64,000 bases of DNA from Candidatus Zixiibacteriota bacterium (GTDB lineage Bacteria > Zixibacteria > MSB-5A5 > GN15 > FEB-12). Below the pieces are notes generated by a model. It did not search any database and was not told where the DNA came from. It saw nothing but the letters and a program-made list of their open reading frames with translations. Made by a program: the position numbers and the translations under genes. This document shows positions 29,555 to 37,956 of this stretch, in pieces (position 1 is the stretch's first letter; every line of letters begins with the position of its first letter). The stretch covers positions 405,501 through 469,500 of the forward strand of contig JACZWU010000001.1 of the NCBI GenBank assembly GCA_022571985.1, read 5' to 3'.

Positions 29555-31648
29555 TTACTGTACATCTACACCTTGCGTAAACGTAAATCCACCACGGGGA
29601 TCTGTATCCTGAATGGTGATTGTCACCTTTTCGGCTGCGCCCGGTGCAGTCCAGAGGAATCCACTGGCTTCACCGTAGGCATTAGTTTCCTGAGTACCAT
29701 TTGCTACGGTTCCAGCGGTAGCAGTCATAATCAGAGTGTGGTCACCAAGAGGATTATTGAAACGGTCCTTTATCAGGACAGAAATATTTACAATTTCGCC
29801 CGGAAATGCTGTCGCCGGTGCAGTTAATATACAGTTTTGAAGATAAGCATCATCAGTTGTAATTGTTACATTATATGAAACAGAACCCCCGCCGGGTGAC
29901 GAGAAAGTGACCACGTCAATGGCGCCAATGCCATCATCGTTGGCACCTGTCAATGATTTGTCTTTGCTAAGGGTATTCGAAAAAATTGTTATTTCTACTT
30001 CTGAAGAAGTACATCCATTTTCAAGAACACCGCTGGAAACACCGAGTATTCCGGCTCTGCCATTTAACTCAATCCCACCAATAACAAAGTTTCCGTTTAA
30101 GTCCAGTCCGATGACGTCGACGAAAACCTTGGAGTCATTATCTGCGGGCATAGATGCTGGCATGTTGTTCGAAAAAATATTTACCGGCACATGACTATTA
30201 ATAAAGAAGCTTGTATCGGCTACTGTGCCGCCGGCAGTCTCAGCCATTATCATGACTATGCCGTCGGCTGAAGGATCGTCATATCCTGAAAACCAGACAG
30301 AGGTAGCAATACCTTCATGGTCCCGGGTTCTTAGTTCGTGTGATTTCATAGTACCTTCGTCGGTGGTGAAATACACAACTGTAGAATCATTTACCGGATT
30401 GTTATACATATCTGATACTATAGCTGATATTTTGTTTTCTTCGACTATGTTATCCCAGAAAGGCACGTTGCAATCTTCGGACCCTATCGAAATTTTTGCA
30501 GGCGGTCCGGCAGAAATAAGTACCTGGGTTGCGTTGGAAAGAATCGTATCAGAGATTGCCCGTATATTGACTGTACCTGAGACTGTACCTGAATGGAAAC
30601 TCGCCTGAGCTTCTCCTTGAGAATTGGTTACTGCATCTAATGGTCCGCCGCCGACATTGCTAAGATGCTCGCCGCCACCGGGACCATTGATAATTATGAA
30701 GCTTACCGGAATACCCTGTGGAACCCTATTGCCGCTGATATCATAACAAGTAGCACGAAGGATTCCCGATTCAATCCCTCCCGTCGTTTTAACTGACAAA
30801 TGCATTGAATCTGAGGCCAAGTAAATTGAAGCTACTGTTGCGTCCGGCGTTACCTGCAGCTGTACTTCGGCGCTGCCTGTAATCCCGGCATCATTAACAG
30901 TAGCTACAAGATAAACTGTCAAGGCTTCGTTGCCGGAAACATAGTTGACAGTAGCAGAACCCGTTCCACCGGCTGTTACGGCGGTAGCCGGAATAAAACC
31001 GAGAGCGTCCCACTGACCGTTGGCGTTGGCATCAAAAATCAGAGAATCTACGTTTGAGGTCCAGTAGCCATTGCTGTCTCTGTCTTCAAACTTTTCACCG
31101 GCGGTAATCCAGATGTTTACTCCGTCTGCAACCGGCTGTCCCAGTGCATCACGGACTGTAATGGTGACTATCGAAGTATCAGCGCCATTGGCCAAAAGCA
31201 GACTTGGGGTAACAGAAATAGTTATGTTGCCGCTGCCCTGTTGAGGAGCATCTGTTATAGTAGCAGCGCTTACACTGCTGATGGAAGTATTTTCCACTGC
31301 AGCGCTAATGTTAACGGAACCGGATACGGTGGCGTTAAATACAACTGCGGCTACACCGCTGGCATCGGTTGTGTCAGCTGTGGGAGTAAAGTAACCGGAA
31401 GTCGAAGGAGACACAGTAAAGTTAACCACGCGATTAGCAAGAGGCGTACCTGAGGAAGTAACTGTAGCCGTAACAATCGCGGTAGTATTTGTTTCAATAG
31501 TAGCTGGACTCACTATTAGTGATAATGTACTCCCGGCTGGAGTGTCATCTACTACATTCTTGGAGCTGCATCCGGCCAGTAACATTACCGCCAGAGACAT
31601 GGTCAATACTGATTTGACCATTGATTTTCCTTGATAGAACTTAAACAT
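29555..31648 (-). CDS. Lipoprotein with bacterial Ig-like (Big_1/invasin-type) domains
   Basis: A 697-residue lipoprotein. The signal peptide ends in the lipobox MLLAGC (Cys ~26), followed by SSK. The mature chain is a series of immunoglobulin-like domains: Big_1-type signatures recur (AVVFNATVSGSVNISAAV; GEAQASFHSGTVSGTVNIRA; GEASGFLWTAPGA), with TNSQG/TDASG turns. About five or six domains fit. One domain carries a short EF-hand-like insert (RDSNGYWTSNVDSLIFDANANGQW region). Such proteins are usually surface adhesins or stalks. Ribosome site GGGGAGAG precedes the ATG at 31648. It is 148 bases after pilQ and past a terminator, so probably separately transcribed. Confidence 0.9.
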   Translation of the reverse strand: MFKFYQGKSMVKSVLTMSLAVMLLAGCSSKNVVDDTPAGSTLSLIVSPATIETNTTAIVTATVTSSGTPLANRVVNFTVSPSTSGYFTPTADTTDASGVAAVVFNATVSGSVNISAAVENTSISSVSAATITDAPQQGSGNITISVTPSLLLANGADTSIVTITVRDALGQPVADGVNIWITAGEKFEDRDSNGYWTSNVDSLIFDANANGQWDALGFIPATAVTAGGTGSATVNYVSGNEALTVYLVATVNDAGITGSAEVQLQVTPDATVASIYLASDSMHLSVKTTGGIESGILRATCYDISGNRVPQGIPVSFIIINGPGGGEHLSNVGGGPLDAVTNSQGEAQASFHSGTVSGTVNIRAISDTILSNATQVLISAGPPAKISIGSEDCNVPFWDNIVEENKISAIVSDMYNNPVNDSTVVYFTTDEGTMKSHELRTRDHEGIATSVWFSGYDDPSADGIVMIMAETAGGTVADTSFFINSHVPVNIFSNNMPASMPADNDSKVFVDVIGLDLNGNFVIGGIELNGRAGILGVSSGVLENGCTSSEVEITIFSNTLSKDKSLTGANDDGIGAIDVVTFSSPGGGSVSYNVTITTDDAYLQNCILTAPATAFPGEIVNISVLIKDRFNNPLGDHTLIMTATAGTVANGTQETNAYGEASGFLWTAPGAAEKVTITIQDTDPRGGFTFTQGVDVQ

Positions 31649-31796: not shown

Positions 31797-33104
31797 TCAG
31801 TCGCCTAAGGCCAGCTCTTCTTCAATTATGGTAGGAGTTACAAAGATTACCAGGTCGCGGCTTTCTGTTTTAGTCGTACGATATCTGAAAAGCACACCTA
31901 TAATCGGAATATCTTTTAGGATCGGAATACCAACTTCGGACTCTATTTCGTCCTGAGTTGTCAAACCAGCTATTACAGCTGTCTGGCCGTTATCAACGAT
32001 TACGTTGGTTTCGGCGTTGCTGGTATTAATAATAATTCCGTTGGGGTCAAACTGGAAAGTTGATCTTTCAGGTTTGAGATGCATGAGAATCCGATTTTTG
32101 GCAGTTATGTGTGGCGTAACTTCCAGAATGGTGCCTATTTCTTCAAATTTTATGACTACGTTTCCTGATGCATCAAACTGCTTTATTGGTATTTTTTGAC
32201 CCACTTGAATCCTGGCAGTTTTGTTTTCCAGGGTGGTGATTTCCGGGTGTGCAATAATTTTCCCTTTACCGGAGGTTACCAGCGCCTCTATGATAGCATT
32301 CACAGACCAGCCACTTTGAAGGGCGCTCACGGTATAACGGCCGGCTACGTCGGTGTTGCGCGCAGTAAGCACTTCACCTTTTTGAGGATATGAGCGGCCG
32401 GTCAAGGTTGTATAGGTACCCGCTACGGTCCAGGAAATGCCAAGCTCTTGCAGATCAGTGGTGAATACTTCCAATAACTGAGTTGATATTCTTATCTGCC
32501 TGGCAGGTTTGTCAAGTTCTGCAATGAGGCTTATAACTTTTTCCATGTTTGCAGGAACTTCACGCAGGATTATTGAATTTGAGCGAGAGTCGCTGATTAC
32601 TTCGCCTCTCTCAGTTAATAGAGACTTGGCTGTCTTGGCAATATCATCAGAGGTAGAGTTAGCGATTTTGATGATTTTTGTTTCAAGTTCCACCAGTTCG
32701 CGCTGTTCTTTCTTGTGCTTTTCCTGCTCCGATGTCTCTTTGCGATAGTCTGCTTCCGATAACACTCTTATGTAGCCGCTTCTTTCATCAACAATGGCCA
32801 GGCCATATGTGCGTCCAATGATGTCCAAGGCATCACGCCAAAGGACATTTGACAGCTTGATTGTTACGGCGCCCTTTACATCAGGAGCAACAACTATGTT
32901 AACATTTCCATAATCGGCTAAAAAGCTGAGCACCGAACGGATATCGGCAGACTGAAACTGCAAGTTTTTGATCGGCTCCTTCTGGGCAATTACCGGAGCT
33001 TTTTCGGGAGCCTCTTCCTGAGCTGAGACAGCTACCAGCAGTCCCATCGAAAAAGCCAGTAATACTGAAACTATAATCAGTTTGTTATATTTTTTGCTAA
33101 ACAT
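31797..33104 (-). CDS. pilQ: Type IV pilus secretin PilQ (short, without AMIN domains)
   Basis: A 435-residue outer-membrane secretin. Signal peptide to ~28 (VAVSAQ). Next a secretin/TonB short N-terminal domain (FQSADIRSVLSFLADYGNVNIVV), an N1-type domain (SRSNSIILREVPANMEKV) and the C-terminal secretin pore (TTLENKTARIQVGQKIP, then VIAGLTTQDEIESEVGIPILKDIPIIGVLFR and the closing DLVIFVTPTII). Typical PilQ of Proteobacteria has AMIN domains in front; here these are missing, and one sits in the neighbouring gene. AAGGAAGGG precedes the start. Last in pilM-N-O-(P)-Q. Confidence 0.95.
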   Translation of the reverse strand: MFSKKYNKLIIVSVLLAFSMGLLVAVSAQEEAPEKAPVIAQKEPIKNLQFQSADIRSVLSFLADYGNVNIVVAPDVKGAVTIKLSNVLWRDALDIIGRTYGLAIVDERSGYIRVLSEADYRKETSEQEKHKKEQRELVELETKIIKIANSTSDDIAKTAKSLLTERGEVISDSRSNSIILREVPANMEKVISLIAELDKPARQIRISTQLLEVFTTDLQELGISWTVAGTYTTLTGRSYPQKGEVLTARNTDVAGRYTVSALQSGWSVNAIIEALVTSGKGKIIAHPEITTLENKTARIQVGQKIPIKQFDASGNVVIKFEEIGTILEVTPHITAKNRILMHLKPERSTFQFDPNGIIINTSNAETNVIVDNGQTAVIAGLTTQDEIESEVGIPILKDIPIIGVLFRYRTTKTESRDLVIFVTPTIIEEELALGD

Positions 33105-33123
33105 TAGTCTATCCCTTCCTTAC

Positions 33124-34707
33124 CTAATAAGAATCCATATTCAGTGCAACGGTACGGCTCCAACCATACTCAAATATCTGGAAATATACTTTTTCCATAT
33201 CCACTCTCAGAACATAACCTTTTTGTACTTTATCACCGGCGCTAAGGATATATCCGAAGCCATCTTTATCTTCAAACAAGGCCCTGTTACTTTCGCCGGC
33301 CGTCTCCAGCACACCGACCAGTTTCAGACCTTCGACATTCGGCACGCGCTTTTCTACCAGACTGTTGCTGATCCTGGTCTCATTAATTAGAGTCTCAAAC
33401 GGATCACGATAGCGCTTACCTTTGTATTTGATTACCAGACGCTTTGGAAATTCTGCAACCATGGTCCCTTTGATTTTCCTTGACTGGGCCGGGCTGCGGC
33501 GGAATCTGGCAGTGGAACTCTTTTCTGCTTTCTTGTCAGTCTTGGCAACTGTAGTTGGCTTCCTGCTTTTCTTTTTACTAACAGATGATTTCTTGGCGTT
33601 ACTGTTTTTGGCAAGAGTAGCTTTGGGCGTGCTTTTGCGGCTGCTTGATTTTGCCAGCTTACTGGATTTTGCATTATTTGGGCTGGCCGGCGGGCCGGTT
33701 TTTTTCAGTTTTGATTCGGTCGCCGATTTACCTTTATATTTGGACTTAATCTGCTTTGCCTGAGTCGGTTTGGACGGGACTGGTTTGGAAACAGCCGTAG
33801 ACGGTTTTTTGGTAACTTTGGCTGTTTTGATCGCTTCCTTTTTGGTGGAAGGAACTGAACTGCCAGTCGACTTTGTTAACGAAGATGGCTTAACTGCTAC
33901 TTTCTTGGTCACAGGCTTCTTGTCAGCAGCAGCCAATTTTGAGGTAGAAGTTTTAGCCTCCGGTTTCGTAATTATTTTTGACTTACTATCTTTAAGCGGT
34001 GCGTCATCAATTACAGAAGAATACATTTTCTTGGTAGCAGAAGGCTTCTTTACTTTGGGAACAGAAACTCCGGAACTAGGTTTCTTAGAAGTACTCTGTT
34101 CTCTGCTGGGATAAATAAACGGTTTTGACTCCGCTGATTCCAAGCTTGATTTACGGTCTTCATCAAGAGCTTTATTAATAGAAGCTATTTTTGCATATGA
34201 ACTATTGTCTGGCTCATCTTTCGCAGACGAAGGCTTTGCTGCGACGGCCGGCTTTTTGGCAGGAGCAGGCTCTTTGTAAGAATCTGAAGACCAGGTTGCG
34301 AAGGACTTACTGTCTTTATCGTGAATAAACAGAAAGACAGAATTATTTTGAGACTCTATTCTATAAGTTGATTCGCCTTTCATGTCCAGAACTATGCGCA
34401 CAATTTTCTCCGGTTTCACGGCGTATTGACTGGTACGAATGCTGGTTATGCGACAGTCGGGTAGCTGCTCATAGGTCTTGGCGCTCAGATCGTGAGTGGC
34501 AGAAAGGATATCTACAATTATTCTGAACGGTCTGCCATCTTTGGCAATTTCTGTCTGATGCGTAAAACGGACCTTTCCTTTGACATTTATCTTTGCCACC
34601 GTAAATCCGTTTGCTTTGTCCAGCTCAATGCTCTTCACTTTCGAAGAATAAGCCGGAGTCGCCGCCACTAATATGACAGCACACAATATTGTAAAAAAGC
34701 TCCTCAT
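33124..34707 (-). CDS. AMIN-linker-PilP fusion protein
   Basis: A 527-residue protein in the pilP position of the operon. Signal peptide to ~22 (ATPAYSS). Residues ~25-130 are an AMIN-type peptidoglycan-binding domain (GFTVAKINVKG, RFTHQTEIAKDGRPFRIIVDI, IRTSQY...RIVLDM). A ~270-residue Lys/Ser/Pro/Thr-rich, low-complexity linker follows. The last ~95 residues look like PilP: YRDPFETLI, LKLVGVLETAGESNRALFED, GYILSAGDKVQKGYVLRVD. PilP couples the inner-membrane PilNO to PilQ, while AMIN binds the wall. Here both sit on one chain, unlike the usual split. Recognition of the end as PilP rests on pattern and gene order. Confidence 0.85.
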   Translation of the reverse strand: MRSFFTILCAVILVAATPAYSSKVKSIELDKANGFTVAKINVKGKVRFTHQTEIAKDGRPFRIIVDILSATHDLSAKTYEQLPDCRITSIRTSQYAVKPEKIVRIVLDMKGESTYRIESQNNSVFLFIHDKDSKSFATWSSDSYKEPAPAKKPAVAAKPSSAKDEPDNSSYAKIASINKALDEDRKSSLESAESKPFIYPSREQSTSKKPSSGVSVPKVKKPSATKKMYSSVIDDAPLKDSKSKIITKPEAKTSTSKLAAADKKPVTKKVAVKPSSLTKSTGSSVPSTKKEAIKTAKVTKKPSTAVSKPVPSKPTQAKQIKSKYKGKSATESKLKKTGPPASPNNAKSSKLAKSSSRKSTPKATLAKNSNAKKSSVSKKKSRKPTTVAKTDKKAEKSSTARFRRSPAQSRKIKGTMVAEFPKRLVIKYKGKRYRDPFETLINETRISNSLVEKRVPNVEGLKLVGVLETAGESNRALFEDKDGFGYILSAGDKVQKGYVLRVDMEKVYFQIFEYGWSRTVALNMDSY

Positions 34708-34725
34708 TAGTTCAGTTCCCTCAGA

Positions 34726-35343
34726 CTATATTTCCAATTCGTGAAGTCGTTCTGATTCCTGCACAAAATATGTTGACAGTGTAAACACTGCGGTTATTGT
34801 TTCTTTTTTCTTCGAAAGATTTTGCAGCCCGTCTTTTTGTGCCTTTTTAGATATCGCCACGTTTTTGGCAGTAATCTTGACGCCTGAAACGTTGGCAATA
34901 AAAGGAAAGTTGGCCACATAGCTCATAAATACGGCAAACTCATGGAATCCACCGACCATTTCGATTTCAAAAGCAGTGACGTTGTAGAATTCTTCGGGCT
35001 CAATCGGAATTGGCTTAATCTTTTTAATGGTGGTGCCGGTTATAGAGGAAGCGGTATGCAACTGCACCAGTAGTGAAGGAATCTGCTTCACTTCCGGCAA
35101 AAGAGATTCGATCTGGTCGTAGCGTTTAACTAAATCTTCGTACTCAAGCTGCAAAGCATCCAGAGATTTTGCTTTCATCTCGACATTGCGAAGATTCGTG
35201 GTAATTGTTTCGAATTGCTGAGTCTTGCTGGTTATCTGGGCATCATAATTTTCATAAACCTTGATATACCAGAAATAAACGATCACCAGGAACGCAACCG
35301 CCCCGAGAATTAACTTTTGACTTTTTGGGTCTTTGAAGTCCAT
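34726..35343 (-). CDS. pilO: Type IV pilus assembly protein PilO
   Basis: A 205-residue bitopic membrane protein: short N-terminus, one transmembrane helix (~12-27), a coiled coil (~35-80, NLRNVEMKAKSLDALQLEYEDLVKRY in part) and a ferredoxin-like periplasmic domain (FEIEMVGGFHEFAVFMSYVANFPFIANV). LLPEVKQIPSLLVQLH is a family block. It pairs with PilN below the outer-membrane complex. Gap to pilN is 14 bases. Confidence 0.92.
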   Translation of the reverse strand: MDFKDPKSQKLILGAVAFLVIVYFWYIKVYENYDAQITSKTQQFETITTNLRNVEMKAKSLDALQLEYEDLVKRYDQIESLLPEVKQIPSLLVQLHTASSITGTTIKKIKPIPIEPEEFYNVTAFEIEMVGGFHEFAVFMSYVANFPFIANVSGVKITAKNVAISKKAQKDGLQNLSKKKETITAVFTLSTYFVQESERLHELEI

Positions 35344-35357
35344 TATATAATCTCTTC

Positions 35358-36092
35358 TTAATTCAGCTTTTTATGGCTGGTTTTTTGCGAACTTCCCTTT
35401 TTTCTTCCTAAAGCACTGGCAATCTGCTGACGCATCTCATCGTCTGACAAATAATGTAAATTTGCATTGATTACGAAGTTGTGAGCTTTGTGATTTTCAA
35501 ACGTCACTTCGGTGGTAGAAGTTAATTCCACTTCATCAAAGTAATCGGAGCGCATCATCTTAATCATAAATGAAGCCAGAGCGTTCAAGGTAAAGGCGTA
35601 TCCTTCAATTTTGACGGGTCTTACTGTCGGCAGGTCGCCTTTGGCTACTGCGGGCTCTGCTTTCGCGTTATTTTGAGGTGCCCTTGCTCCCTTGTTCTTA
35701 TTATCTTTCTTATCTTTTACTTCTTCAATTTGTCCGAGCCAGACAAAATCCGGTACGATCTTCGCAAAATCGTTTAAGATTCTAACCCAGGTTGAACGAT
35801 GGCTGTCTAATTTTTCTACTGCCGCCATACGCTGTTTTACTTTATTCTTAACATCAATCAGGGCATCGACAACTTTGATATCTTTTTGAAGCATGGCAGC
35901 ACGCTTGTTGGCGATCTTGATTCTGGCATCAAGACTTGTTAGCTGCTGCATCTGATAGAATGTCACACCGGCCAGCATCACCAGAATTCCAATGACACCA
36001 AAAGCTGCGTATGCTCCGGCTTTTCCTAAAGAAAGGTTAAACCTTTTCTTTTGATATTCTTTTGGCAGTAAATTTATTTCTATCATTTTCAT
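35358..36092 (-). CDS. pilN: Type IV pilus assembly protein PilN
   Basis: A 244-residue protein starting with the family hallmark MIEINLLP (here MKMIEINLLPKEYQKKR), whose short cytoplasmic stretch binds PilM. One transmembrane helix at ~28-48, then a coiled coil and a fimbrial-assembly ferredoxin-like domain. A Lys/Asn/Ala-rich loop (~125-155) is longer than usual. Lies 8 bases after pilM. Confidence 0.93.
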   Translation of the reverse strand: MKMIEINLLPKEYQKKRFNLSLGKAGAYAAFGVIGILVMLAGVTFYQMQQLTSLDARIKIANKRAAMLQKDIKVVDALIDVKNKVKQRMAAVEKLDSHRSTWVRILNDFAKIVPDFVWLGQIEEVKDKKDNKNKGARAPQNNAKAEPAVAKGDLPTVRPVKIEGYAFTLNALASFMIKMMRSDYFDEVELTSTTEVTFENHKAHNFVINANLHYLSDDEMRQQIASALGRKKGSSQKTSHKKLN

Positions 36093-36100
36093 ATATACGC

Positions 36101-37150
36101 CTACTTTGTCTTCCTCATGGCCAGACCCACTGGAACTGAAAGAAGCGGCGCAATTTTTTCCGGCTGCAGGTACTGAAACAGTTCAGGGTCGTAGTCTACA
36201 TTTCTCAGAGGATTGGCAATTTCTAAAGGGACACCTAATTTGGACTGCAGAAACTCAGGCAGATATGGTATCAGCGCTCCACCACCGGACAAAACCAGCC
36301 ATTCCACATTATCAATTTTGGCTTGAGACTTAAAGTACGAAAAGGCCAGTTCGATTCCTGAAATCAGTTCGTCGGTAGCTGCTATAATAGTGGCTTTGAG
36401 CATGTCCTGGTCAACTGAATCCTGCATTTCGCCCTTAATAGCTTTATTAGTAAGCTCTGGATTGAGCCGGAATTCTTTTTGAATCGCGTCATAAACATCA
36501 CGGGTTCCCGAGGAAACGTCGCGGGTTGACTGATATTGTCCGTCTACTATATAAGTAATATTGGTAACGTCATGGCCAATATTGACCAGAGCCGTAGTTC
36601 TGGTCGGGTCTACATCATAATTGTTGATATATGAATTATAGATAGCCAGGGAGTCATCATCGACGATAACAGGATTCAACCCGCAATCCTGAATCAATTC
36701 CAGAAACATTTCCAGATACTCGCGTCTGGCAGCTACCAATAAGACATCCATTTTATTTTCTTCGTCGTTGGTGCTTATGATGTGGTAATCCAAAGAAACA
36801 TCTTCTATATCAAATGGCGCCCGTTGTTCAGTCTCGAACAAAATCGCCTGCTCGGCTTCTGCTCCGGTTTTCTTATCAATGGTAAACCGGTCAGTAATTA
36901 CGCCGTGACCAGAGATCGAAACTACTACATTTTTAATTTTGGGGTCAGTTTGATCTATAAGTGACTGAATATTGAATATAACAGCTTCCCGGTCTCTAAT
37001 TTCATCGGCAACTATCGCCTCAGGGGGAAACTCTCTGATTCCAATAGCGGCGACAGCATAGCCGTCTTTGGTATGGTCAAGTTTGACCAGCTTAACTGAA
37101 TTAGCTCCAACGTCCAAGCCTACAGTTGATTTACTTCCACTTGAAAACAT
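36101..37150 (-). CDS. pilM: Type IV pilus assembly ATPase-like protein PilM
   Basis: A 349-residue actin-like protein. VGLDVGANSVKLVKL opens the fold; VVVSISGHGVITDRF, FETEQRAPFDIEDVSLDYHI, VDDDSLAIYNSY, TTALVNIGHDVTNITYIVDG and VLSGGGALIPYLPEFLQ are the family blocks in order. It binds the PilN cytoplasmic tail and ATP. First gene of the pil assembly operon. AGGGAAG precedes the start. Confidence 0.95.
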   Translation of the reverse strand: MFSSGSKSTVGLDVGANSVKLVKLDHTKDGYAVAAIGIREFPPEAIVADEIRDREAVIFNIQSLIDQTDPKIKNVVVSISGHGVITDRFTIDKKTGAEAEQAILFETEQRAPFDIEDVSLDYHIISTNDEENKMDVLLVAARREYLEMFLELIQDCGLNPVIVDDDSLAIYNSYINNYDVDPTRTTALVNIGHDVTNITYIVDGQYQSTRDVSSGTRDVYDAIQKEFRLNPELTNKAIKGEMQDSVDQDMLKATIIAATDELISGIELAFSYFKSQAKIDNVEWLVLSGGGALIPYLPEFLQSKLGVPLEIANPLRNVDYDPELFQYLQPEKIAPLLSVPVGLAMRKTK

Positions 37151-37449: not shown

Positions 37450-37956
37450 TTAGTAATATGCTGACATAGTTTCTATTCTTCCGGTAGCGGCCAGAATAGT
37501 ATGCTGATGAACGGCTATGATATCCGGTGTAACAGCCAGCGTAACCACATTTACAGTACCCGGAGTTGAACCGTTGGATCTGAATACTATCGAATTATTT
37601 ATTTCGTCGGTTGCTAAAAAACTAAATACTGCGGGCAGTGTATCCAGGCTGATGATTGAATCTCCCGCATCGAATTGCATAGCTCCGGTATTTACTACGT
37701 CTTTGAAGAGAATATAAGAAAGTGCAGCCTGGTCGAAATATACTCCGTGCTGGCTCTTGGTGCTTACAGCAAATGACCGGGCCAGTCTTATTTTGGAAGT
37801 AATCTCCCTGTTGGCCGCTCGGAATTTTATTCTTTCGTAAGCTATCTGGAACCTGGGAACCGCCATGGCTGCAACAATACCTACTATGACAACTGCTATC
37901 AGCAGTTCCATTATGGTCATACCTTTTTTTGACTTAATTCTCTGGGATAACATCAT
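37450..37956 (-). CDS. Prepilin-like protein, GspH/FimT type
   Basis: A 168-residue minor (pseudo)pilin. The class III signal is KSKKG|MTIMELLIAVVIVGIVAAM, with Glu at +5 of the mature chain and the hydrophobic helix after it. The C-terminal half (RLARSFAVSTKSQHGVYFD, later FRSNGSTPGTVNVV) is of the GspH/FimT type, which prime the pilus tip. It lies ~300 bases upstream of pilM on the same strand and has its own transcription unit, plausibly used by the same machine. Confidence 0.92.
   Translation of the reverse strand: MMLSQRIKSKKGMTIMELLIAVVIVGIVAAMAVPRFQIAYERIKFRAANREITSKIRLARSFAVSTKSQHGVYFDQAALSYILFKDVVNTGAMQFDAGDSIISLDTLPAVFSFLATDEINNSIVFRSNGSTPGTVNVVTLAVTPDIIAVHQHTILAATGRIETMSAYY

Follow-up and report, generated by a model that had tools for sequence, protein, structure and literature searches.

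An AMIN-linker-PilP fusion in the type IVa pilus operon of Zixibacteria and its proposed role as a cell wall anchor

The PilP proteins of type IVa pilus machines described so far are small inner-membrane lipoproteins with no extra domain, and the AMIN domains of these systems are found on the secretin PilQ, which has two in Pseudomonas aeruginosa and three in Myxococcus xanthus. In P. aeruginosa, the AMIN domains of PilQ bind peptidoglycan, and the PilMNOP proteins are recruited through an interaction of the homology-region (HR) domain of PilP with the N0 domain of PilQ (PMC5285504). In M. xanthus, AMIN places PilQ, and a PilQ lacking it fails both to be recruited and to assemble (PMC10653833). 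Two systems outside the type IVa pilus are also relevant. GspB/OutB of the type II secretion system (T2SS) is an HR-fold partner that docks on the secretin N0 domain and binds peptidoglycan, such that an inner component joins the wall and the secretin (PMC9239104), and FliO, a core part of another envelope machine, has gained an N-terminal AMIN or LysM domain in some lineages (PMC12403147). The 64-kb window analyzed here, meaning the whole stretch of DNA, comes from a Candidatus Zixiibacteriota genome and contains pil genes on the minus strand at 31797-37150. AMIN likewise serves the secretin complex in the systems with an AMIN-bearing PilQ; here, in contrast, it lies at the mature N-terminus of a PilP about three times the usual length, and PilQ begins almost at N0.

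The gene in the pilP position (33124..34707, minus strand) encodes a protein of 527 residues and lies between pilO and pilQ both in the window and in its relatives. Whole-length scans of this protein against Pfam and NCBIfam gave no relevant domain match, a search of its own genome with the AMIN family PF11741 gave none, and a single-sequence search of the PDB was also negative. Scans that include the low-complexity linker miss both domains, which are recovered once they are cut out. Alignment of homologues reveals two conserved blocks (residues 22-134 and approximately 400-527) separated by a variable, low-complexity stretch. Profiles and predicted folds confirm the composition that an earlier note had proposed for this protein, namely a signal peptide, an AMIN domain, a Lys/Ser/Pro-rich linker and a PilP-like end.

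The AMIN domain comprises residues 22-134 (34306..34644, minus strand). Once cut out, this region scores 28.3 bits against PF11741, above the curated cut-off of 20.5 (E = 2e-6), and the same family matches the cut-out domains of 20 of 25 homologues when E values up to 10 are counted. A profile built from this block and compared with solved proteins finds M. xanthus PilQ (9e-7) and Escherichia coli AmiC (0.036). The fold predicted by AlphaFold has a pLDDT (predicted local distance difference test) of 93.4, and its best Foldseek matches are M. xanthus PilQ (2.1e-4) and E. coli AmiC (2.6e-4), both with a probability of 1.00, followed lower down by the B2 domain of Neisseria meningitidis PilQ (template-modelling score 0.67, E = 0.085). 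Peptidoglycan binding is known for the AMIN domains of AmiC and P. aeruginosa PilQ (PMC5285504, PMC12403147), and by analogy the AMIN domain of the fused PilP would bind peptidoglycan as well. Together with the HR domain, it is among the best conserved parts of the fused protein.

The HR domain of PilP comprises residues ~426-527 (33127..33432, minus strand) and is identified by profile matches to solved PilP proteins, by PF04351 and by Foldseek. The PF04351 search gave a divided answer, as 18 of 23 HR homologues match the family (best 5e-4), while the domain from the window, taken alone, reaches 14.9 bits, below the cut-off of 25.6 (E = 0.026). An HR profile widened with relatives from outside the phylum (profile A3) matches the solved PilP of M. 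xanthus (5.7e-16), P. aeruginosa (3e-5) and N. meningitidis (7e-5), with GspC ranking after all PilP proteins at 0.01. The predicted fold has a pLDDT of 76.7 overall and ~82-93 in the core; PilP accounts for the three best Foldseek matches (E = 3e-4 to 8e-3), and no other match falls below 0.6. The earlier note had held that its interpretation would fail if the C-terminal residues did not match PilP, and the match is upheld by the widened profile and the fold. The same two results led to rejection of the alternative that this domain is GspC-like. The fused protein shares the HR fold and profile with type IVa PilP from P. aeruginosa (2lc4/2y4x), N. meningitidis (2ivw) and M. xanthus (3jc8), along with the operon place between pilO and pilQ and a flexible N-terminal region ahead of the HR domain.

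The signal peptide (residues 1-21, MRSFFTILCAVILVAATPAYSS; 34645..34707, minus strand) has no lipobox and is probably cut by signal peptidase I, judging from its sequence. By a simple sequence rule, a lipobox is found in none of 50 AMIN-PilP proteins and in 32 of 82 other PilP proteins, a comparison that rests on related sequences; the remaining 50 non-fused PilP proteins lack one too. The inner-membrane lipoprotein state, with its lipobox, is a trait of proteobacterial PilP and not of the whole family.

Between the two domains lies a low-complexity linker rich in Lys, Ser, Ala, Pro and Thr (residues 135-414; 33466..34305, minus strand), delimited by composition and conservation. Its measured length of ~280 residues agrees with the ~270 estimated previously. 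Two short motifs stand out: NKALDEDRKSSL (residues 178-189; 34141..34176, minus strand; consensus NxxIxxDRxxSL), present in most of 31 same-family proteins, and the basic motif STARFRR ahead of the PilP domain (residues 398-404; 33496..33516, minus strand), which in the general form [ST][AS]RFRR occurs in all 31 proteins examined from the window's family and in none outside it. The linker is mostly basic in the window's family and 211-357 residues long, compared with 38-430 residues elsewhere, and neither length nor charge is kept outside the family. We infer that the linker tethers the two domains and holds a docking motif close to the HR domain. Since length and charge vary so widely, the tether would be a loose one that does not fix the distance across the periplasm, which makes the role in spanning the periplasm suggested by the earlier note less likely. 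The linkers of the pilP genes at L054, L056 and L057 are built from repeated KADKKAKA-type units, which suggests linker growth by tandem duplication.

The adjacent secretin has no AMIN domain. PilQ (435 residues; 31797..33104, minus strand) scores 276.8 bits against TIGR02515, slightly below the cut-off of 284.35, and contains three domains: N0, where the HR domain of PilP is expected to dock (residues 48-114; 32763..32963, minus strand; PF21305, E = 2.7e-7), N1 (Secretin_N; residues 142-203; 32496..32681, minus strand; PF03958, E = 6.4e-13) and the secretin channel domain (residues 274-428; 31821..32285, minus strand; PF00263, E = 6.4e-43). Only 47 residues precede N0, signal peptide included, leaving no room for AMIN. 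The genome has a single AMIN-profile match and a single PilP-profile match, both in the fusion gene, and profile searches found neither an independent pilP nor an AMIN-bearing pilQ elsewhere in it.

The architecture is not confined to this genome. Of 132 genomes from the phylum, 117 match the PilP profile and 119 the AMIN profile, and both domains lie in one open frame (292-731 codons) in 111, a count obtained by comparing contigs and open-frame lengths between the two match tables by eye. In the other six PilP-matching genomes, the domains are on separate contigs or frames, or the AMIN match is lacking. PilQ is without AMIN throughout the phylum sample. Chance or mis-assembly was rejected as an explanation, as the architecture recurs in 111 genomes, some of them complete chromosomes. 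The AMIN-PilP fusion is phylum-wide in Zixibacteria, and it also occurs in further lineages outside the phylum. For these, 254 more distant genomes were searched, 160 of them again with a wider profile, and operons were read from about 90. Fusions above the Pfam cut-off were found at L109, L110, L111 and L113, with outside members also exceeding the PF11741 cut-off in the whole-genome search; those at L126 and L118 were detected by the widened AMIN profile only.

Related PilP proteins carry other additions. The PilP of L112 (L112:3623-4486) has a C-terminal SPOR domain (57.4 bits) alongside a PilQ of 361 residues, as called, that lacks AMIN, and the 598-residue PilP of L118 (L118:2536-4329) has a diverged AMIN-like N-terminus and two SH3_3 domains (84.6 bits). 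PilP proteins of ~670 residues at L124:4163-6175 and L125:4404-6431 contain an Ala/Glu/Lys repeat stretch, a weak SH3 match (SH3_3 in L124) and an N-terminal domain matching no Pfam family. AMIN was considered for the N-terminal part of these two proteins and is unsupported (hhalign E = 0.19, no Pfam match). Across 118 pilP-pilQ pairs in which PilQ has at least 340 residues, 45 have AMIN on PilP, 50 have it on PilQ, 23 have it on neither protein and none has it on both. The Fisher value for this exclusion, 1e-15, is inflated by the relatedness of the sequences. PilQ is 519-1083 residues long with AMIN and 361-711 without it.

The origin of the fusion was approached with two trees. In a PilM+PilQ tree built after removal of the gappy AMIN columns of PilQ, the AMIN-PilP lineages except L110 form a clade (support 98/96) nested within a 14-row group (100/99) that includes the SPOR variant L112 and L124; the remaining members of the group have SPOR, SH3 or other extra PilP parts and a PilQ without AMIN. 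L110, whose branch is very long, falls outside the clade and could mark a second origin or be misplaced. In the second tree, of AMIN domains, most of those from PilP adjoin the first AMIN of PilQ from neighbouring lineages, apart from the amidase AMIN domains, with weak support (Shimodaira-Hasegawa-like approximate likelihood ratio about 80). Given this placement, the domain most likely moved from PilQ to PilP, though this is not proven. The earlier description of AMIN as moved from the secretin thus holds in that the PilP domains group with those of PilQ and not with those of amidases, but the weakness of that support keeps it provisional.

Taken with the precedents above, these results support the earlier note's interpretation of the fused protein. 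AMIN on PilP and N0 on PilQ allow the chain between wall and secretin to be closed by another route. We propose, with a probability of roughly 0.72, that a soluble type IVa PilP became the wall anchor in these bacteria, its AMIN domain holding peptidoglycan and its HR domain docking on PilQ N0, in place of the AMIN domains of PilQ. In this mechanism, the fused PilP would be exported as a soluble periplasmic protein, the usual inner-membrane lipid anchor being gone, and its N-terminal AMIN would bind peptidoglycan. The C-terminal HR domain would dock on the PilQ N0 ring, as in the related systems, and the long flexible linker joining the two domains, with short conserved motifs before the HR domain, would probably contact PilN/PilO. 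PilQ of these bacteria would have lost its AMIN domains, and both recruitment to the wall site and resistance to retraction force would run from PilQ N0 through the PilP HR domain and the linker to AMIN and the wall. The pilus of Zixibacteria is thus probably held to the wall by a part other than in the bacteria studied so far.

Several observations weigh against this proposal. The mutual exclusion of AMIN on PilP and PilQ rests on related sequences, and the PilP type outside the phylum is represented by five pairs only. Furthermore, AMIN is detectable on neither protein in the 23 pairs noted above, so either the machine can do without a wall module on these two proteins or some AMIN domains have been missed; the long PilQ proteins of L154 and L199 may hide a diverged AMIN. 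Lastly, linker length and charge are unconserved across the clade, and a mechanical role for the linker is only putative.

The strongest competing explanation, which we consider unlikely, is that AMIN acts as a septal or polar localization tag during assembly and bears no load, the anchor being another protein, for example a LysM protein of the TsaP kind. The AMIN domains of AmiC and PilQ are indeed known chiefly for septal or polar targeting (PMC5285504, PMC10653833), and a flexible linker of variable length fits recruitment better than force transmission. However, targeting and anchoring can coexist, and an alternative TsaP/LysM anchor is unsupported here, as no search aimed at such proteins was made. 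It is much less probable that the fusion is a precursor cleaved in a protease-sensitive linker, which would free the AMIN part and leave a short PilP of the usual kind. The long, basic, low-complexity linker of the window's family would suit such processing, but other families and phyla retain linkers down to ~38-60 residues, AMIN and PilP are never separate genes in the operons read from the sampled clade, and no second export signal accompanies the PilP half. That AMIN is a structural spacer or PilQ assembly chaperone that has lost wall binding is the least credible reading, since near relatives carry SPOR and SH3 on PilP, making wall contact the likely common property, and AMIN is among the best conserved parts of the protein, even if some AMIN domains may serve non-wall roles, as with the effect of the FliO AMIN on FlhB stability (PMC12403147).

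The proposal that the fused PilP anchors the machine to the wall can be extended to the deep clade that includes all Zixibacteria. There, at what we judge to be even odds, PilP took over wall attachment from the secretin and gave up its membrane anchor, and lineages later swapped one wall module (AMIN, SPOR, SH3) for another, so that PilP and not PilQ would set the site of the machine and what it pulls against. The AMIN-PilP machine is a variation of the type IVa pilus and not a new kind of system; the genome contains the pilM-N-O-P-Q operon and PilT. OutB differs from the fused PilP in being membrane anchored, in binding the wall by a C-terminal extension instead of AMIN, and in belonging to the T2SS; FliO differs as a membrane protein of the flagellar export gate that is unrelated to PilP. 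No report of PilP combined with AMIN or SPOR was found in the open-access literature, though an earlier listing is possible. As standard scans can miss both domains when the linker is included, the architecture is likely under-annotated. The AMIN domains of PilQ are regarded as placing and anchoring the pilus machine, and a ten-species survey attributed polar versus peritrichous piliation to whether the secretin has AMIN (PMC10653833). Scoring the secretin only would call this clade AMIN-less, even though its pil operon encodes AMIN. Asking whether AMIN works equally well from PilP would directly test the need for a wall module on the secretin itself.

The remaining pil genes of the window are also on the minus strand: pilO (34726..35343; PF04350, E = 1.1e-21), pilN, which starts MKMIEINLLPKEY (35358..36092; PF05137, E = 7e-12), and pilM (36101..37150; TIGR01175, 196.8 bits versus a cut-off of 133). 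PilM, PilN, PilO and PilQ all pass their Pfam cut-offs, and PilM is 99% identical in the closest Candidatus Zixiibacteriota metagenome-assembled genomes. The open reading frames bear out the order pilM-N-O-P-Q given in the earlier note, together with its coordinates, and the same order is kept in pil operons collected from relatives. PilT-family matches above the cut-off lie elsewhere in the genome, which also has other ATPase matches. Among the distant operons, L133 and L134 have the order M-N-Q-O-P instead of M-N-O-P-Q, and single open reading frames at L110:5972-7615 and L114:660-2537 match both PilM and PilN and are PilM-PilN fusions.

The genome encodes one further secretin, of 425 residues and without AMIN. 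It belongs to a second type IV filament or T2SS-like locus (L128:3862-11727; own genome C1, ~183.9-191.7 kb) with an ATPase, a PilC-like protein, two pilin-like proteins, a PilM-N-like fusion, a PilO-like protein and a GspC-like protein of 149 residues that barely reaches the Pfam GspC cut-off. This T2SS-like machine is distinct from the pil system and has a GspC-like protein of its own. Directly downstream of pilQ, positions 29555-31648 (minus strand) encode a 697-residue protein with a lipobox-like LLAGCSS and Big_1/invasin D3 domains, which is possibly a pilus-associated surface protein; many relatives have an open reading frame of ~580-720 residues in this place, compared by length alone. 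Upstream of pilM, positions 37450-37956 (minus strand) encode a pilin-like protein that scores above the cut-off for N_methyl and slightly below it for GspH, and most relatives have an open reading frame of about this size in the same place.

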